A DNA stretch of 64,000 bases from Aphrophora alni (Eukaryota > Arthropoda > Insecta > Hemiptera > Aphrophoridae), in assembly GCA_963513935.1 (NCBI GenBank), contig OY740770.1, positions 86,339,267-86,403,266 on the forward strand, written 5' to 3'. Numbering within the stretch: position 1 is the stretch's first letter; every line of letters starts with the position of its first letter. Below are positions 28,429 to 61,072 of the stretch, in pieces. The notes below the pieces were generated by a model that was given only the letters and a program-made list of their open reading frames with translations, was not told the origin of the DNA and made no database searches. A program made the translations under genes and the position numbers.

Positions 28429-28470
28429 AATTAAACGCGTTTCAACGACAAAGTCGCCATCCTCAGTGAT
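28429..28470 (-). ncRNA. Hammerhead-ribozyme-like motif, family 1, well preserved core
   Basis: On the minus strand: CTGAGGA (28460-28466), one extra U, stem II GGCGAC/GTCGTT closed by a TTT loop, then GAAA, the palindrome ACGCGT as stem III strand, and U as the base at the expected cleavage position. The core fits the hammerhead consensus CUGANGA...GAAA...UH. The extra U before stem II departs from the textbook form, and I find little stem I pairing, so catalysis is uncertain. Confidence 0.55.
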
Positions 28471-28527
28471 ACATGAGCTACAATAACTAAACTATAACAG
28501 TTATAGTTTAGTTATTGTAGCTCATGT

Positions 28528-28570
28528 ATCACTGAGGATGGCGACTTTGTCGTTGAACAGCGTTTAATTA
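28528..28570 (+). ncRNA. Hammerhead-like motif, family 1, damaged mirror copy
   Basis: Mirror image of the left-arm motif. CTGAGGA (28532-28538) and stem II are intact, but GAAACGCG has become GAACAGCG, which breaks the GAAA core and the stem III palindrome. Probably inactive. Confidence 0.5.
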
Positions 28571-29231
28571 AGTAAAAGTAATTTTTGTGAGATCTTGTGT
28601 TAAAGTTTTATTCTATCTAATATTATCTCACAAGTCAAACTCAAAATTTATTAATAGATATAATTACAGTTATTTATTTTTATTTTTAGGTATTATAAAC
28701 TAACCCATCAATTTGTTGCATTAAAATACACTTTTGGCGATTGGTGAATGTAAATTTTAATGTATAAGATATTTAACAGCTATTGTTGTTTGTGTCTTAA
28801 TAATATCAAGTAAAGCTAGCAAAAAAAATCTGTCAATAATTGTATAATTGTAAACATTAGAGCTAGCGGTATTATCTATCATATAATACATATAATATGG
28901 AAGAACACTGAAGAACTCGGGTGTTTTTAAAACATAGTGAGTGGTTTTTTAACATTATGGTAGCTGAACTAACTTATTTTATGATGGATGCTTCTTTATA
29001 ACAAATAAATGTTATTGTTTTTAGTTAACTAACTCCCATTTTTGTAAAATAATTTATATTTGTAAACGTTTCTACTATATTCACTAATTTTTAAATTAAA
29101 ATATATTGAAAAAATCCTAAACAAGTAAGCATTTTTATAATTGTGTTATAAATTATAGCGATATGTATATATTAGGCTATATATTTTCCTTCCATATTAA
29201 ATTAACCTTCTTAATTCGTTCATTATAACTA

Positions 29232-29310
29232 CATGAACTACTTTTTAATAACTAAGTAAATATCCTCAGTTGCTACATACACACAACCCTGATGACAGTC
29301 GTGTCTTGTA
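29232..29310 (-). mobile_element. Decayed element end related to the 60.8 kb hammerhead-like family
   Basis: The plus-strand text CTCAGTTGCTACATACACAC (29266-29285) followed by AACCCTGATGACAGT matches 60790-60819 (TCAGCTGCAACATGCACACA, then ACCCCTACTGACAGT). On the minus strand CTGAGGA (29263-29269) is followed by a degenerated stem II (ATTTAC, TTA, GTTATT) and AAAAAG in place of GAAACG. It is a mutated single copy, with no inverted partner seen nearby. Confidence 0.5.
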
Positions 29311-32300
29311 TTTGTATTAAAGTGGGTTCACAGAAGGTAGAATCAGTTTCAGATTTTTACGTAACCAAACCATTAAATGTACCTATCCCGATACCATCAC
29401 CAGGACACCTTGGATGTAAATCTAGTTTTACTTGATAAACTCAAACTATTGAACAGATTTTAAAAATAAATACTCTATATCATGCCAAAAATCTTGACTA
29501 ATCCTATTAATACTTGCACCATCGTATTCGAAAACGTCGCCTTAAACATGTCTATTGACAATTATCTTTGGAAATAAATCGATGCTATTAAACACGTGAC
29601 ATAAGAATTGTTCACTATCATTCGGGATTGATTATTGAACGTCCCTCAGAGGCAGCTCATTATTTTCAGTACAAGTGTGGAAATCCCGAGGTCTACAAGT
29701 TTCAAATCTGGTTTCTCTTTACCAACTTTTGTTCTTTTCCGACTCTGATGCTATTAAATTATGCCAGAAGTAGAAGTTTTATTTTATGTTCTCTTCTCCC
29801 TACTATAACATAAGGCGATAATGACCGAGTGCTTTTTCGCCTTTAATCAACGTAGGAAAACAAGAATATGGATTAGAGACTTTTGTTAAAATCTTTTAAA
29901 ATAGCTTCACTTTTACTTCTCAGTGATTTAATCCAAAATATTTACTTTTGTGTTATTTATTGCCTCTTTTTTGCCCCTCAGATAATTGAATGTATATCTA
30001 CCAGCAATTATATAAAATGAAATACTTATTGATCATAAGTAATATTTAAAAAATGTTGTTTAATAATAAAAGTAGTTTATTTTGTCGTTGTTCTATATAT
30101 ATATATGTCTTTACGTATGTATGATTTGTTGTTCATGTATTATTGTTTAATCCTTTGTATTACCATATATTGTTTAAAATTAAACTGTACATTAATTTAT
30201 TTGTTTTCACCCTAGGTATGTCTGGTGATGTTCATCTCAAATGTGTGAGTATTTATAAAATAAATATAACGTAACACAGACGTATATATGGGAACAAATT
30301 TTAAATTTTGATACTCCATACTTTAACCCACAAAATTGAAATTTCAATATGTAAAATCTTATTAACAGAAAAATTTAAGTATTTCCTTATTGTGAAAAAT
30401 TGTATTATGGAGCTAAAAAATATGTAAAATCTTTTGTATTATTTGTATGCATCATTGTAAAGAAAAAAAAAATTAAAAAACGAATGTGTATTCGTGGAGT
30501 TTTCTTTTTAAGAATTTTTTTTTTCTAACAAGCCAAATATAAATCTCCCTAGCAACGTGTATCAGCATATCGGTAATAAAAGTCATGGCCCACAGTAAAA
30601 TAATATTGGTTATTTATCAAGATTTGAATATATTTTAATTGATCATTCTTTCCTAATAAAAAGATAAGTTACACAATTATGTCAACCACATTTAATATTA
30701 TATCATTTTTAATGCCTATATTTTGAGACTGAAACTGGAGTAGTTTAGATTTTAGGACATATAGTATATTTTGAACATTTTAGTTAATAAATAATACCAA
30801 AATAAGGATTTAAAATGCAAAAAAAAATTATAAATTTCTTGAAATATTTAAATTATATAATTATATTTGATTGATAATTATAATTGATTATAATTGATAA
30901 ATAATTATATTTATCATAAGCATAATGTACGTGTATACTTCTATAATGTTAATCTTAGTTACATACAGTGCCTATAATAAATCTGCATTACATGAGTAAT
31001 ATAATTTATCTAAAATAGAAGAGAAATGTTTAGCAATTGAAGTTCTACTTCCTACAATATAAAATTTAATTAGAAAGGTTGATCGTGTGAATATGGAACA
31101 ATATTGATTTTCATGAATTATTTCAATATTTTCTAAAGATAAAGAACTGGAGCTATACCTTTTTACTAATTGATAATTTAATTTCATCCGTTGCCATATG
31201 GCGACCACTTCTGTTTAACTAAAGTGCCACGTGCTAATGTAGGTTAAACATTGTGCTTACGTAATTTAGCAAAATGTTAGAGGTATTAAAATAACCTAAA
31301 ATTCACATGTAGATATTTTTATTCATGAAAAAACAATCCCTGCCGAATCATTTACTTATTTTTAAAGCGGTTTTGTTGAAATTCTGAAACCTAATGATTT
31401 TGAGACTGAGTAACAAGAATTTGTTATTATTATTCGCATCTAAACCAAAACCTTTGTATCTAATAAGATCAGTGGCAAGCAGTAAGAAGGCCGGGAAGAA
31501 TTATATAAGCTGAGTGGTCGCTTTCACAAAAAACTGTTCAATATTTAAAGTCCATTATAACAGCAACTATATTGTACTTAAAACAGGGGTATGGTTCTTC
31601 CATGAACCCAAGTAAATAACGTCTGGTTTTCGTAAATAATTTTGCTTTAATATTTCGCTAGCAATGAAATACAACAAGTACAGACATAGATGACGCTCGG
31701 TTTTAAGGTATTCATTAAACAAATTGTCATATTATTCTCCAATTGATTACATGCAAATTGTGTTTACCGTTAGAATTATTTGGATTTTAATTACATTTGA
31801 AGTTCTACATGTTGTATGAAAGAAATTTAATTATATTGTGATTAAAATATATTTAATGTTTTACCATTATTGAAATGATATATTCGTTAATTATAGTCAT
31901 ATAACGTAGTGTTTTTTTTTAAATAATTTAAGAGAGGAGGAAATGGTTTTGTCTGTCAAGATAAATTTTATATTCAAGTACAGTTGTAGTTTACGCAGTG
32001 TGCACTAAGAAACATTTTGATGGTCATCTCCAAACAAACGAATTTGTAAGTGATTCATATTTTAATTGTTGTTTCAAGTTACTCCTTTTATTTCCTTTCC
32101 ATCAGTTTCTTAGTGAAGCATACCTAAATTAATGTGAAGGTTTATAGATCTGTTTTAGGTGAATAAAAATATTTCACTCCTTACATTTATCTTCTTTTGT
32201 TGTTCGTAGGTTTGTACGTCCGTCACGTCCGAGTTTTAAAGAAAACCTTTAAACTGATATCATTCAATTTGATTTTTTTATTAATTTTATTTTTTTAGCA

Positions 32301-32814
32301 GGATAGATTCATTATAGTAATAATATATTTAATATATAGTAGTGGTTGACTCCTCTCTTTGAAGTTTGATTAAACATTGCTAAATTCCAGCTGTTTACTC
32401 CATGGTGCCAACCAGGTTTTCTAGGATTAAAGCTATAAAAACCTATATACCTAATAGGAGATTTTCTTCCATTTTCTGCAGTTTGTCACAACTAACCACT
32501 ACCTTATTCCCATCTTTTTACAATCCCAGATGTGATAAATATCAACTGAAGGGAGCTTCAGCCCTACACATGTACTAGTAATCTCATTCTACCTTCATTT
32601 ATATTTGCTGTAAATTGAATATAAAAATACTCTGTCCAGTTTTATCTCTCAAAGATTTAAACTGAATTGTATCTTTTCCTTAAACAAATATCAAATCGTA
32701 AATGTATTGCTTGAAAAAACATAAAATCATAATTACGTTGTAATTATCCAAACTTATTGCAACAAGTAAATATCACCTGAATATGTGGCAATAATTTAAA
32801 ATGAACAACGGCAA
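29311..32814. other. AT-rich stretch without recognisable genes
   Basis: A slightly GC-richer patch lies at 29590-29830, with a 61-codon plus-strand frame of no recognisable family. A short (TA)n is at 30096-30107. Nothing else is supported. Confidence 0.6.
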
Positions 32815-32957
32815 AACTTGTTTCACTTACACTGGTAACATTTTAAAGTTGACACGTAACACATTATTAGAATAATAAATGGGTAATTAATTACCTCATT
32901 TCTCACCGTCAAGCACTCTAAATATATCCTGTCGGATTACCGGTTTCGGTGGTAATT
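32815..32957 (-). mobile_element. Penelope-like element 3'-terminal fragment, minus strand
   Basis: Nearly identical to 36273-36415: TTACACTGGTAACATTTTAA, GACACGTAACACATTATTA and GGGTAATTAATTACCTCATT occur in the same order. It therefore belongs to the Penelope-like family at 36.3-37.8 kb. On the minus strand it keeps only the 3' half of the hammerhead-like motif (CACC, GAAA, the palindrome ACCGGT, then A) and breaks off where stem II would begin. It carries no coding sequence. Confidence 0.75.
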
Positions 32958-34192
32958 GAAAATGATAATGATATGTATTTTTGTTTCTTACAATGTAGTC
33001 ATAACACAAACTAATTTCACTCTTTTTTCTCTATTTTTTGCATAGATTTATTTCTTTTCTTTATGCTTTGACTAAGTTGTAAATTATAAGTATAAATACT
33101 CATTCTGTGAATTAATTGAATAAATTTAATGAAATATTTGTAACCTGTTGCGATTTCCTTAGAATGAAGTTATAGAAGTTATATATAAGTGTGTGTGTGT
33201 GTATTCACGATAATGTTTGTGTCAGATATTTTTATAACAAAACTTGTGTTGTTGTGTTGTTAAAATATTGTGAATAATAATCCTTATTTCGCAGAATTAA
33301 AAATAAAATACTTAGCAAATGACTTCAGCCCCCCCCTCTCCCCAACGTGTATGTACACATTGTAGGTATCTAATATATTTATACTCATTTTTCTCCTTCT
33401 GTATTCTCCTAAGCAATTGTATTTTCATTCTCCGTGAGGCAAACATTTCTCCCTGTACTATGCTATATTTGAATGTTATTTGCAATAAAAGTATTATTTC
33501 CTGTATTGTTAGCAGGCATGCTCAGAAAAAGATAACCGTCTCTGCGGTATTCTATTCCGTTCTACAATATTTCTACTTTAGTGTTTGGAACATGTTGCTC
33601 GTTATCCGTATTGTTAGAATACAATTGTTACAGTTTAGTTTTGTTTCTTGTTTTTGTTTCGAGGAATTCTTGTTTTCCTTATTGTGTATATCGTCACAGA
33701 GTTAATGGATATTTGATAATATTTTGGCTTCAGAGAAACGGATATTTTGACAACTTTCTTTTCTAACTCTAATGATTTAGTTAGGTTTTCAAAGTTATTT
33801 TAAATATTTTTCAGTTAAAAATGCATCAAAATTGTCTTCAAATTATTTTAGATCAACTTATTTTACTGTAAACACTAATTCTTATGCTTTATTTCTTTTC
33901 CTTTATTTTCCTGCAAATCAATTGAATTTTCTGCTTTTCTGAAGATGAATTTATTAACTATGTGAATTATTTATTTCTGTTTGTTAAAAAAAAATGGAGA
34001 AAGAAGATAATAATTCCGTTAAATTATCTTACTTTAGTATTTTTATTACTAAATTTATTTCTGTGAACATTAATGGTTTTATTTATGTGTGTGTTGTTAA
34101 TGCTTAGATTTTAATGCATTATAATAGAAATTATTAATTTCCATCCAAGAATCCATTGCAATAATTTTCAATGATGAAAAGAAACTCATTCT

Positions 34193-34193
34193 G

Positions 34194-34267
<74 letters not shown>
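34193..34267. repeat. Compound (CA)n(TA)n microsatellite
   Basis: About 17 bp of CA dinucleotides run directly into about 58 bp of TA dinucleotides. Confidence 0.97.
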
Positions 34268-34268
<1 letters not shown>

Positions 34269-34571
34269 GATAACCATCTTTATGTTTCCATTATAAATCT
34301 AGTAATCAGTTGTAATCAGACTATAGGCCTCAATAAATGACGCTATGATACGATGTTTCCTTAGTCTGTGGGGATAATTTGTCTTTTGAGTTGCAGGAGA
34401 ACTAACATTTAATTAACTAACCTAACCTTTAATTAAAGCATTCAACAATTTTAATGCATTTATTGTTGCATTTCACTCCTTATATTCGATATCGCTTGCT
34501 TAAATGTTCAAAGAAGTTAATTTTGCTAGTACATATGGAATAATAATGACTAATAAAAACGATTTAGAATT

Positions 34572-34585
34572 CCCCCCCCCCCCCC
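34572..34585. repeat. C14 homopolymer
   Basis: Fourteen C in a row in otherwise AT-rich DNA. Confidence 0.95.
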
Positions 34586-35970
34586 GTTTGGGTTGGCAAG
34601 AGGTTTCTATTGTTCGTTATCCTAATAATCTTCAAGATAATTTATATACGGATAACCTACATATTTACAGACTTTCACACATAACGTTTTGCTTTCAGAA
34701 TGTATGAATTTATCATTCTGAAACAGTTTATCTTAGTTTCTTATGCATTTTGACGTAAACTAGATGTGAAACAAAACCAAGAGATGACATGACATATATA
34801 AAGAACAATATAACAGCTGAGACACCCCACTTGTTCCTCGCTTATGCATTAGTTTTGATTAACTGCAACAAAATATTTGATGTTGTTTCTTTCAAATTAA
34901 TTTGCTAAGTGTTTGTTTTGAGTTTTCGAAAGTCATTTAAAAATAGCTTTATATTTCGTAATCATGAATAAACGTATTTTATTTAATGTTTAGATCATAT
35001 ATTAAATAAAACACAACTTATAGTGTTAGGTTTTAAATACATAAATGATTAAATCAATAAATATTTTTATTTCACCATCGGTTGTTTCAGTAAACGGGCA
35101 TTATAAATTGTTTACCTAAGGTAACAATGCCTTATACCATTTGTTAGTCGCCATTCCGAATTTTGATATATTAAATAATAAATGTAAGACTTACCGTCTA
35201 CAATATTCTGATTTTGTCATTTATACGACAGCCGTTACAGCTATTCCGCCATTTTCATGTTATTTTTTTCAATACCATTAATAAGGAGGTGGGTAGTTTA
35301 GGAGTAGTATATTGTAAAACGAAATAGCGTAAAGAAAAGAAAGATATAGTTAGAAACGTATAGTAGCTTAGTTGTAATTCAGAGTCCACCTTGGACATAT
35401 GTGCAATCTATGTGAAATTAATAATTAAACCAGACATACTGGTTTAAAACCTAATTACAAAAAGAATGACTAAATATACCTATATTATGTCTGAAATTTT
35501 ATAATCTTCTTTTTTAGTGAGATAGTGAGTGTAGTATATATACAGTTAACTTTAGTTTTAATTAACAACGGATTTTAAATATTTGGATGTTTATTCAATT
35601 TTAATTTTATTTAAAGGAAAAAGCTTCAGTAACTAATGAGGAAGTAGTTTACTTTATATAAGGAAAGTTTCAAATAAACTATTGTTAAACCAGTCTATTG
35701 AAGTTCTATTTGCAATAGTTTTGTTCTTCATTATGTAAAATGTTTTCAAAGTTGTGTCATAAAGTACAACGGAATCTAAAAGGTTTTGCTCTTTGTAGTT
35801 AGCAGATAGTAATAAATTTCGATCTAAAATAGATGCCCTTTACTGTTTTGTTAAACATTACTCCGAGAAATATATTTTGCTGAACTCTTTTCAAATTATA
35901 TTTGTGTAATATAAAATACAAAACTTTACTAATATTTTATCCACAATTAACATCTTTTCAAGTGATAGCA

Positions 35971-36101
35971 AACTTAGCGAAATATGAAAGCCAACTTCTA
36001 AACTTAACCCCTTCATATTATCCGTTAGGCAAACACTCTACTTCTCTGTCATTTACTACACTTGTAATACATGTAATACAAACTTGTATTTTCGCTAAGT
36101 T
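35971..36101. repeat. Small inverted-repeat element, about 130 bp
   Basis: AACTTAGCGAAA (35971-35982) is the exact reverse complement of TTTCGCTAAGTT (36090-36101). The interior includes CCCTTCATATTATCCGTTAGG (36008-36028) within a stretch that also appears, diverged, at 51165-51230 (CCTTCATATTGACCGCTAGG). It is probably a small non-autonomous element or a fragment of one. Confidence 0.45.
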
Positions 36102-36271
36102 ATAACTTGCGCATATATAGTTAAGGAGGTGGAAGTAAAATTCTAGATATAATTATACTCTTATGTTTAAGATAATCTGTGTTAGAACTGAGGCTAAGTG
36201 TAACTATATAAATACCATTAGTCGATAAACACTTGAGTGTTATTAAGTAGTTTAAGTGCTATTAGTAACAC

Positions 36272-36811
36272 TTGTTTCTCTTACACTGGTAACATTTTAA
36301 AGCTGACACGTAACACATTATTAAAATAATAAATGGGTAATTAATTACCTCATTTCTCACCGTCAAGCACTCTAAATATATCCTGTCGGATTAACGGTTT
36401 CAGTGATTCATTTTACCATCATCGGATCAACCTTAAAATATGTATTTCATTCCTCTGTTAAGGAATACGTCGTAGAAATACACAAAACTAATACATAAGA
36501 CACTAATAATACACAATTACTCGAAAACATGTACTGTGTTACAATAATAAAAAAAAGACATTCCAAGGTTTAAAATCAATCTGTGATTTGAAAACTTAGT
36601 TAAAACCTATGTTACTTTGTGGAGAGTATGTGTACAACTGGAGTTTTGTACAATTTTATGTAAGAGATAAGGATGTTCGATCATGGAGTTAGTTGGGTAA
36701 TATTTTATCTCTCAACAGGATAGATGTGTTAAATAATTCGTTAGATGAATAATTACGTTTACCATTTAATACATTATGTGGATCACATTTTGAGGCAGTT
36801 GAAATTTCACA
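36272..36811 (-). mobile_element. Penelope-like element, 3' fragment on the minus strand (left half of a back-to-back pair)
   Basis: Reverse complement of 37345-37811. The shared part covers the last codons of the endonuclease frame (36690-36811 against 37345-37463), the 3' untranslated part and the terminal sequence with the hammerhead-like motif. Long shared words include CAATTTTATGTAAGAGATAA and GGATGTTCGATCATG. Its 3' end extends about 50 bp beyond the region shared with the plus-strand copy, to the same sequence seen at 32815-32870. Its 5' truncation point (about 36811) abuts directly the start of the plus-strand fragment. Confidence 0.85.
36385..36432 (-). ncRNA. Hammerhead-like motif, family 2, mutated copy
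   Basis: On the minus strand the core reads CCGATGA (36424-36430), one change from CTGATGA, then UGGT..., then GAAA, ACCGTT and A followed by ATCC. The flanking GAT and ATC can pair as the start of stem I. The core change at U4 and the broken ACCGGT palindrome suggest loss of function. Confidence 0.45.
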
Positions 36812-37464
36812 TCGACTACTCAGCATACATCTAAATTATGATAACTTCAAATTGGAATATAACATAATGAAACACAAAGCCCTAGCAAACGGTTATGAAC
36901 AGGGATTAATTGACAGACTTATTACAAGACAAAAAAGGAAAATGGATAACAAAAACAATGCCATAACCCCAGAGAAAACACTTATATATCCATTGAATAT
37001 AACAAAAAATATATAATTTGACGTAAGGAAAAAGAAGAAAATATAATGTCATGTATATATATATATATATATATAATAAATATAAACATGTCAGATGTAT
37101 ATAAAGATTACATGTAGTGATAGTCCTAAATTTTATATCGGCCAAACTGGAAGCTTCATCAAACGGTTTAAGAAACATCTGCCTAGACCCCCATTATATG
37201 AACAGAAATCCAATTTCATCAAACATCTTACTGACTTTGACCACAAATATATCAAAGGTCCATCAAACAAAGGTTTGGTTCATAACAACCTATAAATTCT
37301 TCTCGCATGCAGAGAAGGCTTTATTGTCATCCCTGGAGGAATTCGAAATTTACACTGCTTCAAAATGTGATCCATACAATGTGTTAAATGCTAAACTGAA
37401 TTATTCATCTTACGAATTATTTAACACAGCTATCCACTTGAGAATTAAAATATTACCAGAATAA
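36810..37464 (+). pseudogene. Penelope-like retroelement ORF fragment: RT tail, linker and GIY-YIG endonuclease
   Basis: Codons from 36810 read HRLLSIHLNYDNFKLEYN and continue through HKALANGYEQGLIDRLI to a stop at 37014. This is the conserved end of the reverse transcriptase and linker of Penelope-like elements (family pattern HRLLSIPL, then I..A..NGY...LID.LI). After a (TA)n insertion (about 37052-37075) the frame resumes at 37095 with the GIY-YIG endonuclease: YIKITC, then FYIGQTGSFIKRFKKHL, then FIKHLTDFDHKY. A frameshift near 37270-37290 moves to another frame (FFSHAEKALLSSLEEFEIY to a stop at 37462), matching the usual domain end. The catalytic RT domain is missing, so this 5'-truncated copy is dead. 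In an intact element the protein copies RNA and nicks target DNA. Confidence 0.9.
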
Positions 37465-37811
37465 CGTCATGATCGAACATCCTTATCTCTTACATAAAAT
37501 TGTACAAGACTCCAGTTGTATACATACTCTCAACAAAGTAACATATGTTTAACCGAGTCTTCACGTAATATGTTGATTTTTAACCTTTGAAATGTTTTTA
37601 TTATTTTCATAGTCTACATGTTTTCAAGTGATTGTGTATGTGTTAGTTTTGTGTAGTTTTAACGTCGGGTTCCTCAACAGTGGAGTGAAATACATATTTT
37701 GAGGTTGATCTGATGATGATGGCATGAACCACCGAAACCGATAATCCGACGGGATATATTTAGAGTGCTTGACGATGAGAAATGAAGTAATTAATTACCC
37801 ATTTATTATAA
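37465..37811 (+). mobile_element. Penelope-like element 3' terminal region
   Basis: Follows the endonuclease stop codon. It is the inverted match of 36323-36684 and carries the hammerhead-like motif about 246 bp after the stop. It ends in GGTAATTAATTACCCATTTA; homology with the minus-strand copy stops near 37811. Confidence 0.85.
37706..37752 (+). ncRNA. Hammerhead-like motif, family 2, near-intact core
   Basis: CTGATGA (37710-37716) is followed by TGATGG, a short interior, CCACC, then GAAA (37734-37737), ACCGAT and A. The palindrome ACCGGT of the related copy at 32.94 kb is altered by one base here. GAT before the core and ATC after the cleavage position can pair as stem I, with a partial extension (GGTT against CGAC). 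The copy has three extra bases (TGA) after the core compared with its sister at 36.42 kb. Confidence 0.55.
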
Positions 37812-37984
37812 TCATTCATTCTTGGAAGATAATAATATAATGTTTACATTAGTAGAACTAAATTACCCTCAGGCAGACACTGAAACACTGATATAGTTTT
37901 AATCAATTAACACTTAAAGACTTATTATTATAATTTCGTACTAATGTACACGTAAATGTTAAAATTGTTTAAAAAGCCATCCCG

Positions 37985-38022
37985 TCTTAACTGTGCGTTT
38001 CGCCTTCAGTCTCAAGGTTATC
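37985..38022 (-). ncRNA. Hammerhead-like remnant downstream of the antisense Penelope relic
   Basis: On the minus strand CTGAAGG is followed at once by CGAAACGCAC, so stem II appears deleted. It lies about 230 bp downstream of the minus-strand GIY-YIG relic (38235-38800), the same spacing as in the plus-strand element. Position more than sequence supports it. Confidence 0.35.
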
Positions 38023-38170
38023 TAGATGATGACTTAGGTTTACTTTCATAGAGATCCCAAGAGTTCAAAATTCTTCTATATGTTGGTTTGGATATAACTG
38101 TGTCATATATAGAATTAGATGTGAAGTTTGAATTTACGTTTAGTTAATTGTCATGGTTACTTTTAAAATG

Positions 38171-38172
<2 letters not shown>

Positions 38173-38222
<50 letters not shown>
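38173..38222. repeat. (TA)n microsatellite
   Basis: About 50 bp of pure TA between the antisense Penelope relic and its terminal motif. Confidence 0.97.
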
Positions 38223-38227
<5 letters not shown>

Positions 38228-38234
38228 TGATATT

Positions 38235-38800
38235 TAAATATCTACTTTTTTTTTCTTTTGTGAGGAATATATCCATATGCGTAATGGCGGTGCCATATGT
38301 ATGTTTGGTTGATATTAGACGCTCTGAATATGGTGCGTTTCTATTGTACGTGTTCTTTGAAAAGGGTTTTTAATGTTCTGCCCGTTTGGGAAATGTCCTA
38401 CCCTTGTTTGCAATCGCTGCACTATAATTTGTAAACATCTATCCATTTTGTAATGACTTACGGTGAAATGAATTATTCATGTAATCCTGTATGCTTCTAT
38501 TGTTGGTTTTTAGTAGATTGATTTTGGACGGGTGTTCTAAAATGAAGTTGTTGTTTTTTTTGCTGACACAATTTGTATATCTCCATCGGTTTTATTAGGA
38601 GACTGTAGGTTTATTTATCCAATTGTTTTGTTTGTTTGTATAAACATTTGTTACCAATTGATTATCCATAGCCCTGTGTTATGTTTTTGATATATGTATT
38701 TATTTTTCAAAATCTGTTAGATCTAAACGTAAGAGATGGGTGGATTTTATTTAGATAATTATTGAAATTTCATAGTTTGTAAAACCGAAAATAGTCATCC
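38235..38800 (-). pseudogene. Second Penelope-like relic: RT end, linker and GIY-YIG endonuclease, minus strand
   Basis: Translated on the minus strand in several frames, the order of pieces fits a Penelope-like C-terminus. First NNYLNKIHPSLTFRSN (about 38770-38720), like the family's LNKIHPSIKF block; then TNVYTNKQNNWIN (about 38640-38600); then a linker with LEHPSKINLLKTNNRSIQDY (about 38545-38480); then CSDCKQG, a YIGQTG-like SQTGRTLKTLFKEH (about 38415-38345) and a weak C-terminal tail. Stops and frameshifts are frequent, so this copy is older than the one at 36.8-37.5 kb and from another lineage (QTGRTLKT against QTGSFIKR). No intact domain remains. Confidence 0.75.

Positions 38801-39133: not shown

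Positions 39134-39136
<3 letters not shown>

Positions 39137-39177
<41 letters not shown>
39137..39177. repeat. (TA)n microsatellite
   Basis: About 40 bp of TA repeats, followed by more TA-rich sequence to about 39205. Confidence 0.95.
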
Positions 39178-39785: not shown

Positions 39786-39824
39786 TTATTAGCAACAGCT
39801 GTTTCGTCTCTCACTGCTAACACA
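39786..39824 (-). ncRNA. Hammerhead-like remnant with palindromic stem III
   Basis: On the minus strand GTTAGC, AGTGAGA, GAC, GAAA, then the palindrome ACAGCTGT, T, then GCTAAT. The outer strands GTTAGC and GCTAAT pair fully as stem I, and ACAGCTGT is self-complementary. The CUGANGA box is not intact and stem II is missing, so this is a decayed or divergent form of the type seen at 57.08 kb. Confidence 0.4.
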
Positions 39825-39894
39825 AATCATATTATTTGAAATACATCATACCGAGATGTTGAACAACTTATATTTTAATTAGTTTAAAACGCAA

Positions 39895-46823: not shown

Positions 46824-46863
<40 letters not shown>

Positions 46864-50910: not shown

Positions 50911-51559
50911 GATAAATAAATTATTTTTAACATTTTTTCTCTAGTATTAATGATTTTCTTAACTTACATAATTTTTCCCCCCTTTTGAGCCCTTAAAGGG
51001 GTACATTGTTACAAGCGGAAGTTAAAATTTTATCGAAAATGATGTACACACCCTAACGAACAATTTTCACTTTTTAAAATGAAAATATATTTGATAGATC
51101 TGATTTGATCGCTTTTCAAGAATTACGGTTTCAGACGCCATAGTAAGAAAGTCTACTCGTAACTCCTTCATATTGACCGCTAGGCAAATACTTTCACAGC
51201 CTTGTAGTTTATTACGTTTCTAAAATCATATTCAACATGTAGAGTGTTTAATGCATAAACATCGAACAAAATATTGCATTATTACAAGTGCACAGGCATT
51301 CTAAATTAAGCTTGAATATAATATTTATATTTAATAAAAATTCAGAATTCAATTATTTTTTTGCCAGTACTTTTACTTCCAACTTAGCATCCTTCTTTTT
51401 TTCCCATTAACCTTTGGAACCCAAACATTTGTATATTGTCGGTAAAACTAACATACTAATCAACTTTAGAACATTTATAGAATTCGAATACAAGATTTTG
51501 TTTTATTCTTTTCCATTGAGAGTTCGAGTTAATAAAAATTTATTTATTTAGTATGAACG
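50911..51559. other. AT-rich stretch without recognisable genes
   Basis: Includes 51160-51235, which is similar to the interior of the small inverted-repeat element at 35971-36101 (CCTTCATATTGACCGCTAGG). Nothing else recognised. Confidence 0.5.
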
Positions 51560-52971
51560 AAAATAGAAAGAAAAGAGAGTTAAACCTTTGATTAACATTT
51601 ATTTAAAAACAGTCAAATACAATTCCTTTTTCACTCAATCAGATTTTTTTTTAAATCAAGCAAGTCTGTGTTTTCATCAGTGAATGTTGAATTTAATAAA
51701 GCCAAAAGTCCTTTTATTTTCCTATATTGCCTATACTTTAACCTTAGTTGAAAGAAAAAGCACTTTCACCGCATAATTCTAATAACTGTAAAATTCCTTT
51801 TTCTTTATAATAATGCTTTCATCATTCTCTTTTAATAACACTTTAAAATCAATTACGGCACTTTAAAAACAGCGTATTTTCTTATATTACTCCTTTTATA
51901 AACTTTCTATGTGTCAGTAGCACCTAATGTACTTAGGTAATGTTTCCAACTCTATACTGTTTCTTCTTTTGCCAATGTACTTAGAAAATATATCAATGGA
52001 AATTTAGAGTATAAACAAATGATAATTTTATTAAGAAGAAAAAAAACGCAAATGTAACTGATCTCCTGATTAATTCGAAAATAAATAATTTTTTCTGAAG
52101 CTGTAATAAAAGTATTTACGGTTACTGTCTCAGAAATTCCCATTTAAATTCTCGTTCTTTTAAATAGCTAAAATATATTATTTCAGATTTCCACTTTATA
52201 GGAAAAACTATCTTTTATCTTTTTTTTGAATGTCTGATTTTGTTTTAAATGTTAAATAAATAAATATGACCTAATTATTAAAATGTATTACTAAGGCATA
52301 AAGGAAATTCGTTGTATAATTTTTTTTTGGTTTAGATCACGATCAAATCATTGTATATTGTATTACGCATTCTAGTAGGAAATTATTGTGGGGGAAAACA
52401 TTTTGGAGTAGTCATAGGTACATATTTTATGATTATAATCATATATCTTCACTATTATATCTTAATTAATTAAATATTATAACTTCTAATTAATGATCAA
52501 ATTTTACAATAGTCATATATATTTATCCATAGATACAAAATATTAATCATTTATAATTATTTAACACAAATCTCTCTTTAATCTTGGGTTAACTGATTCT
52601 AAACCTTTATATATACTTATTTATTTGTTTCATCCATCTTAAACTATTACATAGTAAATTAAATTATTTTATGGCTTGATATTTAGCTTATACAAAAATG
52701 GGTATTAGTCTTATGGTTTCTTAGTTTTTTAATTTTAATTTTTTTGAATAAAACACAAATCATGTTAACTTTAATTCAATCAATTTTGTCAAATGTTTTT
52801 CAAAACTGTTACTCAAGTTTTATTTTTACAATAAATTATCGTCTATAATCTTCTTTAGTCGATCAAAATATTGTTTTATGAATTAAATATATGTTTTGGT
52901 ACTGTTTCTTCCTTTTTCAACAACTAACTAAATCAAAGTATTCCATCTTAAAATATATACAAAATATAGAT

Positions 52972-53001
52972 ACCCAGGATCTATTCAGTTGGATCCTGGG
53001 T
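52972..53001. repeat. Short perfect hairpin, 10-bp arms
   Basis: ACCCAGGATC and GATCCTGGGT flank a 10-base loop. It is unusually GC-rich for its surroundings. Confidence 0.7.
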
Positions 53002-53757
53002 CAGTACTGTAATTGGTTTGTTAGTTAACAATTTTCCATTTAATATTCATTAATTCAGTCTCCATTGGTCAACTTTCATTTAACCTTCATATCTTTTAGC
53101 ACTGTCTAATTGAAATTTCACTTTAATAATTGTTTCAATTTTTACATACTCTTAATTAATTAATATTTATTCAAGCCAGATCATTATAAACAATATTTAT
53201 TATATTTCAATTTAAATATTCATCATTTACTTATATTAATAATATAACATATTTATAATATGTTTCTTTGTATTGACTAATTTATTATTTTCCCATTTGT
53301 ATCCCTTTAGTACATAAATTGTCCGTTAGGTGTTTAATTATATTTATACACTTCAATTAATTACACTATTCAATTTCGTCATAACCTATATTTGATTATA
53401 GATTTGTTTTAATTTCCACCAATTATTATTGTTTAAATTATTTTTTTATCTTTATCTCATTAAATATATTCCCTTCTATATTAAGTTTTATTTTCTTATT
53501 AATCATATCTTATTTTCAAGATAGGCCTACTCCGTGTGTACTTTAATTTAAGTGAACAATTTATTTATGTATTTATGATTCTATCTTCTTTATATTGACT
53601 ATTGATTCTAAGTTATTATAAATTTAGAATCATTCATTCTACTTCAAGTCTCCTATCAACATCTTTGATTATAACGCTCTACATCATTTCATTAGTAACT
53701 TAGGTATATTGTCAATCGTAACAATACATAATTTTGTATCTTCAATTTCATTTTTTC

Positions 53758-53758
<1 letters not shown>

Positions 53759-53805
<47 letters not shown>
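53759..53805. repeat. (AC)n microsatellite
   Basis: About 47 bp of AC repeats. Confidence 0.98.
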
Positions 53806-53809
<4 letters not shown>

Positions 53810-54685
53810 AATCATAATAATAAATAAAAATAATTAAAATGTTTTTTCTATTTATCTAATTTTTAACAGAGGTGATCGTATTTTTTCCGGACTAGACAAC
53901 TATGAAGAAAATTGTTGTTGTGTTTTAATTTAAAATTCCGCTTTTCATCATAGAACGAGTTTTTAATTACTGGAGTTTTACGCTTCATCGTATATTTTAT
54001 TTTCATTATATTGTTAATTGTTTAAACTAAACTTTGTGAAAATTAAATAACGAGAAGACAAGCAGGAAACTAGTTACAAGTTACGTCTAATGTAAATTTA
54101 TAGATCCATTAATAGAGTGAAAATATGCAATGCTTCGTATTTGTTTATGTTTTCAACCTGACTTTTTCCCTCTCCAGAAAAAAAGAGCTTATTAATATAA
54201 AAGTTTAATATAAAATAATTACAATGGGTTTGATTTTCGTCAGAATGTTGGTATTTTTGGTGTGCAACATATTCTCTTACGTTTTGACTTCACCCTTCAT
54301 AGTTTCATTATTTTATTGCCGAATTTCGTGTAGTAATGTAGTTATTCCAGCGGTCCATTGATAATACTGGAACCCGGGACCATAACTTATATATCACGTC
54401 TAACCTAAGGGCTTTACGATGACTTTGTAAAGCTATAGACTTCGTAAGACCTAAAGACTGCGATAGCTTATTTTGTAAAAACGATCGAAACATTTATCCC
54501 ACGAATTACATTTATATCACTTCCGGTTTCAAAATGTACCGTACATTTACAACTGACAAACCGACCAGAGTACATTTGTAAATAAATTTTTATAAAAGAA
54601 TCATGTTGATAGTATCCAAGTCACTATTGTTTTAACGAACAATTAAATTACATTTGGTTTCCGCCAGGTGACTTATTTTTTATAT

Positions 54686-54727
54686 ACACTTACGCGTTTC
54701 GAAGCGTACGCTCCATCTTCAGAGTTC
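54686..54727 (-). ncRNA. Hammerhead-ribozyme-like motif, family 3, best preserved in the window
   Basis: On the minus strand: ACT, CTGAAGA (54716-54722), extra U, stem II GGAGC/GCTTC closed by GTAC, GAAA, the palindrome ACGCGT, A at the cleavage position, then AGT. ACT and AGT pair as the first three base pairs of stem I. Every conserved hammerhead core base is present; the only deviation is the extra U between A9 and stem II. With so short a stem III, pairing between two copies through ACGCGT is the more likely active form. Confidence 0.65.
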
Positions 54728-54799
54728 TATTTTCTTTTTCACTCGGTTGAGATCGTTATACATTAAAATAACACATAAAATCACACGGACACTACATAA

Positions 54800-55228
54800 A
54801 AACCTAATGGTTAACGAGATTATAAGTGTTGAAGCAGCAATAAAATCAACCATTAGGTTTTTATTTGAATGTGGTAGATTTTACTTTAGACCCTTCTCAA
54901 GGATATTCATTTCGTCTTTACTAAATGAAACTGTGGTTAAGTTATTGACTCGTTCATAAAACTTATGTTTACATTGGATGATGTCCGATTTACAATATTT
55001 ATTTTTGAGGTATTGTAACTTTTTATTGTGTTTGTATATGTTATTTCGTAAGACGAATTTAATGTAATTATTGACATAGTACATACAACTAAACTTCTCT
55101 TCCAACACGATATACGACACTGCAATTAATGTCCAAGATAGTAATCTTAAATAAACATACAATAAATACGAGACGTTAGTTGTCCTAGGACGTTGATGTG
55201 ATACGCATCGCAAGTGTCGCGTTATCAT
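54800..55228 (-). pseudogene. Penelope-like element N-terminal region, decayed
   Basis: The minus-strand frame 55228-54881 (115 codons) ends in CKHKFYERVNNLTTVSFSKD and EMNILEKGLK. The SFS..E..ILEKGLKYNLP pattern is the hallmark N-terminal motif of Penelope-like proteins. Directly after EKGLK a stop (TAA, where the family has Tyr) interrupts the frame, which then goes on as NLPHSNKNLMVDFIAAST, the expected continuation. The rest of the protein, including the RT catalytic domain, is absent. The start of the 115-codon frame is probably not native, and the N-terminal 60 residues show no motif. Confidence 0.8.
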
Positions 55229-55327
55229 AAGCGATGTATAAATTTATAAACATATATATGTAGTGTCCGTGTGATTTTATGTGTTATTTTAATGTATAAC
55301 GATCTCAACCGAGTGAAAAAGAAAATA

Positions 55328-55372
55328 GAACTCTGAAGATGGAGCGTACGCTTCGAATGCGTAAGTGTATAT
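55328..55372 (+). ncRNA. Hammerhead-like motif, family 3, damaged mirror copy
   Basis: CTGAAGA (55333-55339), extra U and stem II GGAGC/GCTTC are intact, but GAAACGCGTA has become GAATGCGTA, which removes the GAAA core and the palindrome. Confidence 0.5.
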
Positions 55373-55417
55373 AAAAAATAAGTCACCTGGCGGAAACCAA
55401 AGGTAATTTATAAATTG

Positions 55418-56314
55418 AAACCGGATGGATATGGAAGTAATTAGTTGATTATAACTTTTGTTGTCTCCTTCGTACTGAATGTTTGACCTTGTTATACGGT
55501 TAAAACCTAACTTATTGTTTACAGTTTCAAAATGTTTTATACCCACAGTAATCAACATGGGTTTTCTGCTATAAATTAAGAAACACTAAGAAATGATTAA
55601 GAAAATTTGTAATTACCTATTTATTAAACTGAATATTAATTGGATTTCAGGCAAATTCGAAAGGTTTCGTTGTTGATTTATTACAAATAGCAGAAAAAAG
55701 GAATATTTTAGAAAAAAAATAGCCACCAAAAAACAAACTGTGATATAACTCTGAAAGTAGTTCCATAGCTAAAATAAACACACAGAGAGGTTACAAGTCT
55801 GGGTTTCTCAAGGCTTTGCAGTAAAATATATATCCATTAAAGACAGCACGCAATGAAAGATTGTACTTTAGTAAACATCAATAATAGGACACCTCGTCCT
55901 TTATTATTTCTACAGAATTTTGATCCATTATATATAATTTTGATGATTTTTGATTATATTATATCAGTACGAAATTTCGCAGGGAGAGATAATTTCAGAA
56001 CTCTTTATAGGTTAGCCTATATCTGCTTCGAGTGACTTATTTAATAAAATTATTTCCCATTTTATGAGAATTATAGATAACAAACTTTTAAACTCAAATC
56101 CGAAGCTAGTAAATATGCGCAATCCTTTTCTCCTCTATTAATATTTTATGCTTTGTAATCATATTTTTACCCCCGATTTAACCGTACATCCCAGAGAACA
56201 AGATTTCTATACCCTTACTACAATACTTAAAATATTTATTCAAAAGTTTTATTTCCATTACATAGATATTACTTAGTAGGCATATAAGTTATGTACATAT
56301 ATGCACGTCAACAA

Positions 56315-56320
<6 letters not shown>
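55418..56320. other. AT-rich stretch without recognisable genes
   Basis: No gene or repeat recognised. Short frames on both strands (for example 55853-56035) are low-complexity. Confidence 0.6.

Positions 56321-56354
<34 letters not shown>
56320..56354. repeat. (TA)n microsatellite
   Basis: About 34 bp of TA directly left of a hammerhead-like motif. Confidence 0.95.
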
Positions 56355-56356
<2 letters not shown>

Positions 56357-56365
56357 AAAAAAAGA

Positions 56366-56420
56366 TTAGGAACACAGGAAATATTTTAATATTTCGATTT
56401 AATCTTCTTCAGCTTATAAA
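56366..56420 (-). ncRNA. Hammerhead-like motif, family 4, weak
   Basis: On the minus strand CTGAAGA (56406-56412), an extra A, a possible 3-4 bp stem II (GATT/AATC), GAAA (TTTC at 56392-56395), then ATATT/AATAT able to form a five-pair stem III with a two-base turn, then UU. No stem I found. The AT-rich context makes chance pairing likely, so this is weaker than families 1-3. Confidence 0.35.
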
Positions 56421-56694
56421 AAAATATTAAAACAACAGAATGATGAAGAAAACAAGTTATCATATGATTACTAATATTAATTATTTAGATTATTGTTATA
56501 ATAAAACTGATGGTTATAGGAACCAGCCTATCAAGTTGTGAAAATAAATTATTAGTTTTTTTTTTACAAATTAAAACAATATTCTTAAGTAATGACCTTA
56601 AAACATTGGTTTTAACTACTAAAACACATTTTATACCTCTTGTTTAATCCTAATGGGAATTTTGAATGTAATAACCAATGGATGAATTTGTTCT

Positions 56695-56807
56695 GTTTGT
56701 TCAAACTATTATTTGCTTTGACCTTCTGGTAATTTATAAATGCCTTTAACAGTAAAACATTGATCAAACTTTTATTTGCTTTGACCTTCTAGTCATTTAT
56801 AAATGCG
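56695..56807. repeat. 63-bp tandem array, left remnant (about 1.5 units)
   Basis: Same unit as 57204-57604 (TTTGCTTTGACCTTCTGGTA, AATGCCTTTAACAGTAAAAC). It is cut off at the insertion starting at 56808. Confidence 0.9.
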
Positions 56808-57161
56808 GATAAAATAAGCACTAAGCTACAGTTTCAAATGTATTATAAATAATCTAGAATGCTTAGAAATAAATAGATCTATATTACATAAACCTACTTT
56901 TAATTTAAATGATCAAATTTTATTAAACTCTTCACCACTTCTTAAACCACTAGTGTAACATGTTAACCTTTCCCCTTCCTACCTGCTTGGGTTTTCCAGC
57001 TATCCCTTCCATTGTGTTACTTCCGGACCTGTCTCTCTGTACTGTTAACTTTGTTTAGGCTTACTATTACCATTAGCCCGTAGATGCCGCAAGGCGAAAC
57101 AATTGTAGCTAAATAAGTTAATAAATACATTTGAAACTGTAGCTTAGTGCTTATTTTATCC
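56808..57161 (+). mobile_element. 354-bp insertion with perfect 38-bp terminal inverted repeats
   Basis: 56808-56845 (starting GGATAAAATAAGCACTAAGC) is the exact reverse complement of 57124-57161. It interrupts the 63-bp tandem array, so it arrived after the array formed. The interior carries a GC-richer segment (56955-57070) and a hammerhead-like motif just before the right repeat. No coding sequence, so non-autonomous. The right inverted repeat is the sequence downstream of the ribozyme-like motif and the left one is its antisense copy, the same back-to-back geometry as the Penelope-like pairs. Confidence 0.8.
57072..57114 (+). ncRNA. Hammerhead-like motif, family 5, full three-stem fold with core substitutions
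   Basis: Stem I is formed by ATTAGC (57072-57077) and GCTAAAT (57108-57114), with at least five consecutive pairs. The core reads CCGTAGA, two changes from CUGANGA (U4 to C, A6 to U). An extra U, stem II GCC/GGC with a GCAA tetraloop, GAAA, the palindrome ACAATTGT as stem III strand, and A at the cleavage position follow. The fold is the clearest in the window, but the core substitutions suggest loss of activity. Confidence 0.55.
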
Positions 57162-57203
57162 TTATTATGGAGTTTCAACAAGTAGTTACTGCTGTTACAG
57201 TTA

Positions 57204-57604
57204 AATTTATAAATGCCTTTAACAATAAAACTTGATCAAACTTGCATTTGCTTTGAACTTCTGGTAATTTATAAATGCCTTTAACAGTAAAACATTGATC
57301 AAACTTTTATTTGCTTTGACCTTCTAGTCATTTATAAATGCCTTTAACAATAAAACTTGATCAAACTTGCATTTGCTTTGACCTTCTGGTAATTTATAAA
57401 TGCCTTTAACAGTAAAACATTGATCAAACTTTTATTTGCTTTGAACTTCTGGTAATTTATAAATGCCTTTAACAGTAAAACATTGATCAAACTTTTATTT
57501 GCTTTGACCTTCTGGTAATTAATAAATGCCTTTAACAGTAAAACATTGATCAAACTTTTATTTGCTTTGACCTTCTGGTAATTTATAAATGCCTTTAACA
57601 GTAA
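57204..57604. repeat. 63-bp tandem array, about 6.4 units
   Basis: Units start near 57204, 57266, 57329, 57391, 57454, 57517 and 57580. Two variants alternate at the left (a 62-bp form with AACAATAAAACTTGATC and a 63-bp form with AACAGTAAAACATTGATC), then only the 63-bp form continues. Because 63 is 3 x 21, the minus strand stays open for 104 codons (57344-57658) and reads as a 21-residue repeat (LKAFINYQKVKANKS core). I regard that frame as a by-product. Confidence 0.95.
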
Positions 57605-60600
57605 ATCATACGAAAAGGAAGGGGATTTGTTGTGAGGCAAATATAATCTTTGGGACAATTTTAGAAATAAGTTGAAACAAAATATTTCGCAGTTAATATT
57701 ACATTTTTATATGTATAGTAAAAGAACTTGTTCCAAATCCCTTCTAATAATGAAATTAGTATTTGGATAATTGTATAACGCCAAACAAGTCTTTGAAAGA
57801 GACTACATAACGTTAAGTCTAACAAAGTGTGACTCATTATTCCTTTTGTTGTCATTTTTGTTAAACATTCTTGAAAGCACATTCAAGTTTCAGTAGTTAC
57901 CCCCACCCCTTTAAAAAATAATTCTTTCCTGCCCTTTCTTTAAGCTCGTGCAAATTTTCAGATGCATCGCTTTGTAAATAAATTTCCATACACCAAATTC
58001 CACCTAAGGACCCCGTATTAACTTTTTTTATTTTTTAATGTTTAAAATTGACAAAATTCTTAATTTGAGTCTATGTGTAATGGTAACAATGAGAACTCTC
58101 CACACTAAAATATAATGGACGTTGCATCCAAAATTGTAAATTCATTCCCTAAATTCTGAATTAAGAAGATATTAATAAAAAATTGGTCTAAGTAAATATT
58201 ATAGATTGGTAGCAATATGAAAATATAATATATAATACTTAAGCTAATCGGCTTATTTTATACAATTAATTTACTGAAAATCTTTCATCTTCTTCTATGC
58301 ACACTTATTTTGAGTGTAATACAATTTTTTTCTTAATTAGCGTCTTTCCATGAATGCGCGCTGAACCAAGTTCTGTATAATTTTCTTTAAAATTACTTGT
58401 TTTCTGTCACTTTACGAATTACTCTTCCAGGTAACAACACTATTAATTCTTCTATTCCCAAGTAGATCTATCTGTGAATAACCATTCAGAGTTGCCCATA
58501 TTTAATTACACTTTTAATCAGCAAAAACTCAGTGGGAAATAAATTGGAACCAAAAATCGAGGTAGAGAAAGTTCAGAAAAATTAAAGAATGAACATAAAG
58601 CATTTTTAATTCAAACCTTTGACGTTCACTTGGTAATAATTCTATCCTTTGCATCGAAAATTGTTTCATAGTTGAACTGGAAAGTTTATTGGAGCAGAAA
58701 AGCTTTAATGATAGGAAAAACTCAACAAATTATAAGCTGAAAAGAACATAGGATGTTTACGACGTAGTTCACATAACTTCTAGAAAGAAATGTCCATTCA
58801 AGTGTTTTTGCAATAAGATTAAAAGTATTTTTAGTTAGTAGAATAAAACTTGCTTTGTTAAATCTTATAAGATGAAAATAAAATTTCTTTTTGAAAAACA
58901 TTTATTTTAGGGCCAACTATTATTGTAAACGTTGCTTGGATTTAATTTTAGTAGTAATTAGTTATTCTATTTGCTTATGGAAACAATTGAATTTCAGAAC
59001 GTGAAAATAAACATTTATATAACTTAAAACAATTAAACATATATAAAAACTAAACATATTTGTTTATTATAATAAAGTGGAATAGGTAAAAAACAACCAC
59101 TACTTCAGGACTATTCCTTCGTTGGTAGTTAACAATATTGTAAAACCGGTTTTTTTGACAAATAGATAACAGTTTTATCGAGTGTTTTCGGAGTGGCTGC
59201 TCTAAAATGAATTTCTCTATAGTCTATCAAGTTATGTCATTTCCAGATTTTCTATTATTTAAGTTACGTATTTTCCGTCTACTTCAAATAAGAATATAGT
59301 ATTTATTTTAGACGTTTTAGTTAATACAAAATCTCTGAGAAAATCCCCTAATTAAAAATACCTAGATCAAACATCGAATTTATTTTATAAATTGCCTAAG
59401 GCCATTTTATAAATTTATTTTAAACGTTGGTTGCATTAAAACTATAAAAGTATTAAAATTGCCATTTCTTAAAAATTTTAGACTTCGCTACCGAGTACTG
59501 GGGCACAAATCCTGTATTAGTCAAACATGAGTGTTCCACTCCTTCATACGGTATTAGCCTAATTTTTGTTGCCTTAATCCTAAAACCCTTTCCTTAACCA
59601 ATTCAAGAATTTTTTTCTTTTACTGTTATTCTGTTTTATTGTGTGTATTATTTGTTGTATGTACATCATCGACGAAAGTAATAGATTTGATGCTGTTTTA
59701 AACGTAACATTGTTTGTAAGATGTTTGTGTAGCCCTATATAATAAAATGAAATTAAAAAATGTATATTTTTTTTTCAAACCTAATGTTTCTATTAGGTTT
59801 TATTACGTTATAAAACTGGAAATTACATCAATTATTTGTATCTTACATTCTTACCCAATTTGCATGTAATTCTTAATTCATAATTAAACATTTTTACTTT
59901 GTACTGTTTTATTTTATTACCCTTCTTATAATTATTATGTTTGTCTCTTTGTATAGTTTTATTATTTTGTATAAAATATTTTTGCTAACTTTTAATTTTT
60001 ACTTTTAAATAATAGTTATTTTTGAGATATATTTCTATTTATTTATTTCATTGTCATTGGTTTTTACCCTTAATTTTGCACCTCACTGGTTCAAACTCGT
60101 AAAATTCAAGATGGAAATACTAATTTCCAATTCGAAAATTAAAGGTCAATATTATTTTCCTGAACAACAAATTATAAACCAAATAATGTGAAACACCTAA
60201 GTTCATTAAAACACATTAAAGCAGATAAACCCAGACATTTAAACTAATGTTCCTAGATTGTAATCATTTTTATAACAGAAAACTAAGTTTGTATTTTTTA
60301 ATGAGAGATCCAGTTTCGTTGCGAGTGAAGCAAGCAAGGGTTGCTTTAGCGCCTAGTACTACGTACGAAGAGAAGTTTTTATTACAAATCAGTAACTAAT
60401 TGTCAGGGATAATAATGTGAGTCAATTTCAGTTGTTTATACTTTATAAATGAAAAGCAAAACTATTGCATCTTAGAATAAAGAATTGGTTGATACACAAA
60501 GTTGAACAGACTATCTCAATTTACATATACACACACGACAAAACATTACGTTATGATATAGCATTTATATTTTTAAATAGTTTTCTACATAATATAATCA

Positions 60601-60754
60601 AAGATGGCGGTTAATATTTCAATTTTTCTCGATTACTTTTTCGTGTAATTATTATTACGTAATATACGATTATATACTTCTGATATTAATATACCTAAAT
60701 TTTAATAACGAAATAAATTTAAAAATAATTCCACAAAAAAAAAATTGTAAAAAA
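57605..60754. other. AT-rich stretch, mostly unannotated
   Basis: Apart from repeat C copy 2 (58545-58890) I recognise nothing. A GC-richer patch at 60310-60375 (GCGAGTGAAGCAAGCAAGGG) is unexplained. AAGATGGCGG lies at 60601-60610. Confidence 0.55.
58545..58890 (+). repeat. Dispersed repeat C, copy 2
   Basis: Aligns with 39895-40330: TTTGACGTTCACTTGGTAAT, GTTTCATAGTTGAACTG, GAAAAGCTTTAATGA and GTAGTTCACATAA. No reading frame. Confidence 0.6.
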
Positions 60755-60757
60755 TAC

Positions 60758-60797
60758 AAGATGACGTTTCAATGACTAAGTCATCATCGTCAGCTGC
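60758..60797 (-). ncRNA. Hammerhead-like motif, family 6
   Basis: On the minus strand CTGACGA (60787-60793), extra U, stem II GATGAC/GTCATT with a TTA loop, GAAA (TTTC at 60767-60770), then the palindrome ACGT and C, giving the classical GUC cleavage triplet. All core bases fit; stem I pairing is not evident. It is close in sequence to family 1 at 28.4 kb and may be the same lineage. Confidence 0.5.
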
Positions 60798-61031
60798 AAC
60801 ATGCACACAACCCCTACTGACAGTGGACTGTAACTGAATTGCGATTAGATGGTATATATTTTTGTATATCTGAATATTTACATATCCTATATTACTTTAT
60901 ACCTTAGGTTTTGTATCGTAGAATATATTGTGATGACATTGAACTTGAGGACGAGGTCAAACTTCTTCCTCTTGATATAGGAGTGAGGCTTTAGCTGTCA
61001 AAATCCACGGTCGGTAGAGTTTGAGCAAGTG

Positions 61032-61072
61032 GAAGCTGAGGATGATGACTTATTCATTGAAAAGTCGTTTTG
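61032..61072 (+). ncRNA. Hammerhead-like motif, family 6, mirror copy
   Basis: CTGAGGA (61036-61042), extra U, stem II GATGAC against TTCATT (one pair lost), GAAA (61059-61062), then AGTCG where the left copy has CGTC. Partly decayed. Confidence 0.45.

Follow-up and report, generated by a model that had tools for sequence, protein, structure and literature searches.

Minimal type I hammerhead ribozymes of Penelope-like retrotransposons were reportedly described by Cervera and De la Pena in 2014 and by Lunse, Weinberg and Breaker in 2017. Here we analyse a stretch of 64,000 nucleotides from the hemipteran Aphrophora alni (assembly GCA_963513935.1, contig OY740770.1, positions 86,339,267 to 86,403,266 of the forward strand; hereafter the window), which contains a series of motifs that are very probably such ribozymes, lying in the pseudo-long terminal repeats (pLTRs) of several old, mostly broken families of Penelope-like elements.

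According to passages in PMC6155905 and PMC7761336, the type I hammerheads of Penelope-like elements are minimal, usually without helix III. The motifs of the window resemble these, as portrayed there, in their minimal stem III, their pLTR-like ends, their many genome copies and a proposed action as dimers, but differ in that A9 and stem II are separated by one base, which is U in the majority of families. The motif is real, but its kind has already been described, and the families reported here are new members of it. With respect to the arrangement of such elements, parts of a study of Adineta vaga Penelope (PMC3846280) describe pLTRs that are inverted, often head-to-head, with palindromic junctions, target duplications and truncated copies, the head-to-head form being the most frequent and explained by self-priming at palindromes. 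The window likewise displays inverted head-to-head pLTRs, palindromes, a possible target duplication and truncated copies; however, the word "hammerhead" is absent from PMC3846280, and the window holds no intact open reading frame (ORF), and none of reverse transcriptase size.

Results

The first-pass annotation of the window suggested a relaxed hammerhead descriptor with one base before stem II. We used CTGANGA, zero to two bases, stem II and GAAA, and with a stem II of at least 5 bp this found four matches in three families, starting at 28466, 54722 and 60793 on the minus strand and at 61036 on the plus strand, the last two belonging to one family (f3). The matches clearly exceed the background, since in 300 dinucleotide-preserving shuffles of the window (2-kb blocks) the mean was 0.010 and the maximum 1, and none of the 300 reached four. 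No shuffle had as many matches, either, when GAA[ACT] was accepted (six observed, mean 0.020) or when a stem II of at least 3 bp was combined with GAAA (five observed, mean 0.090). Furthermore, CTGANGA ranks first among its 1260 letter orders, itself included, with the next best (four orders) giving two matches. The repeated motif of the window exceeds chance. Pattern scans of viral contigs (86 stretches) and prokaryote contigs (at least 117, with a wider pattern) were also carried out, and their matches were taken as chance.

The annotation had counted a dozen motifs in about six families, all following one plan. In our inventory of 13 items, 11 keep the layout, one copy is truncated, and one, at 39.8 kb, lacks stem II and fails the plan; there are seven sequence groups, or six once this item is excluded, and all six contain exact or near matches, the number of families varying with the grouping rule chosen. 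The claim of one plan thus stands for these six families (f1 to f4, f6 and f7), but not for the 39.8-kb item (f5). Strict descriptor matches include one with a 3-bp stem II (56412, minus strand), and looser versions add those at 28532 and 55333 (both plus), along with other, weaker matches. Reading the families by eye added those at 37710 and 57078 (plus) and 36425 (minus), the 39.8-kb item, and two that the annotation had not listed, at 29269 and 32951 (both minus). In the motifs, CUGANGA and GAA occur in order, and stem III has the A15.1-U16.1 pair followed by H17.

Because the Rfam hammerhead models match none of the motifs, the case for them rests on structure; an alignment of the motifs between families with MAFFT was not usable. 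For stem I, the bases just 5′ of CTGANGA were compared with those after H17, pairing each family's own strands or those of other families, and several stem III lengths were permitted, equally for own and swapped strands. In these anchored tests, stem I was found across the predicted cleavage site. The own strands of the six window families form 26 pairs when one bulge is permitted, and only the true arrangement among 720 reaches this number; with no bulge they form 20 pairs, which 5 of 720 reach. With a seventh family from the right flank (f8) added, the corresponding figures are one of 5040 (again the true one) and 6 of 5040. That stem II varies between families and yet pairs, as the annotation had claimed, was borne out: with exactly one extra base, the own pairing of the seven families was reached by 4 of 5040 arrangements, a result that is partly circular because most families had been chosen by a stem II descriptor. 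In the 37.7-kb copy, the 5′ strand of stem II finds better partners in the 3′ strands of f1 and f3 than in that of the copy itself.

For replication, we took the 30 loci listed first among the 14,031 matches to a strict pattern in the genome (see below), all on one contig (C1). By flanking sequence these loci fall into seven clusters with 14, 8, 3, 2, 1, 1 and 1 members, and the first-listed member of each was used; the pattern fixes stem III and the place of H17, whereas pairing in stems I and II is not demanded. Among 200,000 random permutations, 246 matched or beat the observed stem I run, 1895 the number of paired stem I positions, and only 31 the pairing of stem II. H17, whose identity the pattern leaves free, is not G in any of the 30 loci.

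These results bear on whether the families might simply derive from one ancestral repeat end, with CTGANGA and GAAAC kept by descent and not as parts of a ribozyme. Such a history would agree with a layout and an extra U that are common to most families, and with the lack of Rfam matches. However, the letters of stems I and II vary between the flank clusters but pair within them, while CTGANGA and GAA are common to them, and the pairing of a family's own stem I strands also holds in the seven-family test of window and flank. We therefore regard shared ancestry alone as quite improbable.

The tie to Penelope-like elements that the annotation had proposed is supported by inverted arms, a direct repeat and a weak coding remnant. 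The families at 28.4 (f1), 36.4/37.7 (f4), 54.7/55.3 (f2) and 60.8/61.0 kb (f3) are arranged as inverted repeats, and in all four the minus-strand motif comes first, such that the motifs point outward, that is, head-to-head. Inverted or tandem pLTR-like ends, a mark of Penelope-like elements, are thus present. The f1 element forms a palindrome (28370..28628) of two 129-nt arms that are 94% complementary, with 1 nt between them. A 13-bp direct repeat, AGATATAATTACA, occurs on the plus strand at 28370..28382 and again at 28656..28668, and we read it as a putative target-site duplication from the insertion of the f1 palindrome as one unit; in a check of five elements, matches in the other four were only 6-8 bp long. 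Between the f4 arms lies an open frame (37086..37292, plus strand) with a putative remnant of a GIY-YIG endonuclease (Pfam PF01541, 18.2 bits, E 0.0032). The f4 element (36326-37809) also holds a further inverted pair, formed by 36603-36808 and 37345-37550, in which the 3′ coding end is inverted together with the pLTR. A minus-strand frame at 54.9-55.2 kb may resemble Penelope N-terminal sequence, for which Pfam and protein searches gave no support. Beyond the window, orientation was counted by eye among the 100 genome matches listed: all nine inverted motif pairs less than 500 bp apart are head-to-head, and five further close neighbours are direct.

Four families in inverted repeats could also mean that the motifs mark the ends of DNA transposons of the foldback or miniature type, with a hairpin inside each terminal inverted repeat, and the f1 arms, almost back to back and flanked by the 13-bp repeat, have this appearance. 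However, copies also exist as direct tandem units of 119 bp, some are truncated at varied points, and the GIY-YIG remnant sits between the f4 arms. A plain hairpin, moreover, leaves CTGANGA, GAA and the palindrome unexplained, and we consider this origin highly improbable.

The individual families, read as Penelope-type hammerheads, are preserved to different degrees, and part of the core is damaged or absent in 7 of the 13 window items. The f1 motif (28434..28466, minus strand) has CTGAGGA, an extra T, stem II GGCGAC/GTCGTT, GAA, the palindromic stem III ACGCGT and T as H17; in the other arm (28532..28564, plus) GAACAG replaces GAAACG. In the 14 sampled genome copies of f1, the run of stem I pairs is four in seven, three in two and at most two in five. 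The f2 motif (54691..54722, minus) consists of CTGAAGA, an extra T, GGAGC/GCTTC, GAA, ACGCGT and A as H17, with a 3-bp stem I (ACT/AGT); its inverted arm (55333..55363, plus) has lost a single base 3′ of GAA, and relatives lie at -81.7 kb, at -91.3 kb and on C1 (locus L250). In f3 (60760..60793, minus), CTGACGA and an extra T precede GATGAC/GTCATT, GAA, ACGTCAT and C as H17, stem I has 5 bp when G-U pairs are counted, and the inverted arm (61036..61069, plus) is itself a descriptor match; a decayed copy (29238..29269, minus) retains CTGAGGA, but its GAAAC is altered. The f4 motif (37710..37743, plus) is a near match with intact CTGATGA and GAAA, an extra T, one mismatch in stem II (GATGG/CCACC), ACCGAT, A as H17 and a stem I of 6 bp including one bulge. 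Its inverted arm (36392..36425, minus) has the altered core CCGATGA between the retained flanks GTTGAT and ATCCGAC, and a third copy (32934..32953, minus), cut inside loop II, retains GAA and the palindrome ACCGGT.

The f5 item (39789..39820, minus) shows GAAAC, the palindrome ACAGCTGT and TTAGC/GCTAA. The weakest among the full motifs is f6 (56380..56412, minus), with CTGAAGA, an extra A, the 3-bp stem II and an AT-rich stem III; related sequence at -80.3/-80.4 kb has a decayed core. The f7 motif with its stem I (57073..57112, plus) reads TTAGC, the decayed core CCGTAGA, T, GCC/GGC, GAA, ACAATTGT, A and GCTAA, and a relative at -47.5 kb has CTGATGA in place of this core. A 63-bp satellite-like tandem repeat (6.5 copies; 57204-57609 and 56697-56806) adjoins f7, and identical 38-bp inverted arms lie nearby at 56807-56844 and 57124-57161. 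The further family f8 has the stem III ACATGT and is located in the right flank at about 78.2-78.4 kb in window coordinates (L215), accompanied by a head-to-head partial copy that starts inside the motif core.

Stem III is a perfect palindrome in f1 and f2 (ACGCGT), f5, f7 and f8, and in f4 in the 32.95-kb copy only. A short palindromic stem III in most families agrees with reports of minimal hammerheads of the dimer type in Penelope-like elements.

To determine how common such motifs are, the genome (1.70 Gb in 388 contigs, with the window on contig C5) was searched on both strands for exact matches to CTGANGATG, 8-20 bases and GAAACGYGT. This gave 7034 forward and 6997 reverse matches, 14,031 in total, against 1 and 0 for the reversed control. 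The density is about one per 121 kb, and the window contains two (28466 and 54722, minus). The strict descriptor with a stem II of at least 4 bp has four matches in the 64-kb window versus four in 200 kb of flanks, such that the window is modestly enriched, though not unusual in kind. The remark that so many lineages in one small window are notable therefore does not hold up, as this one narrow pattern alone is so abundant. For comparison, a passage of PMC7229834 credits a coral genome with over 6000 type I motifs, either minimal or canonical, that belong to 16 sequence families.

The least expected result is that f1 forms a tandem array. At one locus on C1 (L254, 9570801-9572200), direct repeats of 119 bp carry motifs on the reverse strand at 411, 530, 649, 768 and 1006 of that locus, that is, five units with an intact motif start; a unit without intact CTGANGATG lies between 768 and 1006, and an inverted piece at one end. 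Among the 100 matches listed, this array alone stands out as a place where short tandem repeats each carry a hammerhead, as in retrozymes, and it would supply what a dimer in cis would need.

Metazoan non-LTR (long terminal repeat) retrozymes, as parts of PMC7229834 and PMC7761336 describe them, share with f1 a type I hammerhead and short non-coding tandem units. It is possible, though doubtful, that f1 is itself retrozyme-like, a non-autonomous tandem element moved in trans by Penelope proteins and not the pLTR of a coding element; this reading is limited to f1 and would not conflict with the motifs being Penelope-type hammerheads. Besides the array with its five intact motif starts, the share of f1 among the first 30 genome loci (14) speaks for it, as does a reading frame, opened by an AUG in the motif (see below), that ends after 9 codons in 8 of 14 copies. 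On the other hand, one array stands out against nine head-to-head pairs, from all families, among the 100 matches listed, and the units of the animal retrozymes in those passages are about 150-300 bp long with canonical hammerheads, whereas the f1 unit has 119 bp and a minimal stem III. A bolder version appears rather unlikely to us: f1 would be a mobile tandem unit of 119 bp whose hammerhead, of the minimal Penelope type and with a U inserted after A9, would act as a dimer; processing would yield very small circular RNAs for Penelope proteins to copy. If it were true, the f1 tandem unit would be a bridge between Penelope pLTRs and retrozymes.

Discussion

How might such motifs work? In an intact element, two motif copies in one direct-repeat transcript would pair via their palindromic stem III sequences; the resulting double hammerhead would cut after H17, such that tandem transcripts would be processed into units. 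The four inverted families of the window would then be head-to-head insertions, probably self-primed, whose ribozymes have largely decayed. Since these pairs are inverted, two sense motifs cannot share one transcript.

Several observations weigh against reading the motifs as Penelope-type hammerheads. Foremost, the covariance-model check proposed in the first-pass annotation failed: no Rfam hammerhead model reached its gathering score over the whole window, none matched within 28-62 kb at E values up to 10, and none matched slices of three window families. RF00008 gave no match genome-wide, a zero that is uninformative because matches were also lacking in the 14 control genomes. The reduced helix III of the published Penelope motifs may account for the Rfam misses.

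With respect to structure, the own strands of stem I were not favoured in an unanchored test of duplex energy over 14 bases, where 406 of 720 and 1727 of 5040 arrangements were equally good, and stem I of the window f1 copy has only 1 bp. When two copies were co-folded, the full double hammerhead was obtained for one of seven sequences (f7, as the minimum-energy structure) and a partial one for another (f1, where stems II and III formed alongside a competing hairpin), while five of the seven folded otherwise. The palindrome of stem III is imperfect in f3 and f6. Furthermore, the C1 clusters include f1 and f2, and the cluster L233 resembles f2 beside the motif, so that the replication is only partly independent of the window. 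With respect to the elements, the GIY-YIG match, found in one element only, lies below the curated Pfam cut-off (18.2 versus 22.6 bits), two other open frames of the window have neither a Pfam family nor a protein homologue, and one pair among the matches listed, 1.7 kb apart, is convergent and not head-to-head. Searches of the PDB with these two frames yielded nothing for one and, for the other, eight weak matches, mostly to designed or leucine-rich repeat proteins and phospholipases.

A last deviation is the extra base before stem II. Nowhere does stem II prefer to close straight on A9; in all seven families (six window, one flank) exactly one base in between gives the longest stem, though the run in the 37.7-kb copy is then just 1 bp, owing to its mismatch. 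In the 264 kb of window and flanks, each of the eight strict matches (stem II of 4 bp or more) carries a single extra base there, always U. The claim is thus that the motif works like a hammerhead, or is a variant of one. An additional nucleotide in the core has reportedly been described for a viroid hammerhead.

The A9, the extra U and the G of stem II together make an AUG, and from its A to the predicted cut there are 26 nt in f2 and 27 in f1. This recalls the hammerhead of the Anolis Poseidon element PAc, whose ORF, in a passage of PMC11167929, starts at the beginning of stem II with the cut site 26 bp past the start codon. However, the frame opened by the AUG here has at most 38 codons in all 30 sampled C1 loci, which also counts against our reading, and we have rejected the idea that the extra U is part of a used start codon.

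In the permissive Rfam searches, microRNA matches fell on AT repeats, on the f1 palindrome and on another hairpin, and none is relevant here. The f1 palindrome (28465-28533) scores as mir-458 (E 0.0002, under the gathering score), a false microRNA candidate due to the repeat palindrome. The other hairpin (61809-61951), with a weak microRNA model match upon it, has 70-nt arms that are 3 nt apart and 90% complementary, and looks like a miniature inverted-repeat element.

A hammerhead model that permits a reduced helix III together with one base before stem II could alter repeat annotation in genomes like that of A. alni. In a passage of the review PMC7761336, the role of the ribozyme for Penelope-like elements is called unknown, and such a model would give a large natural sample in which to study it.

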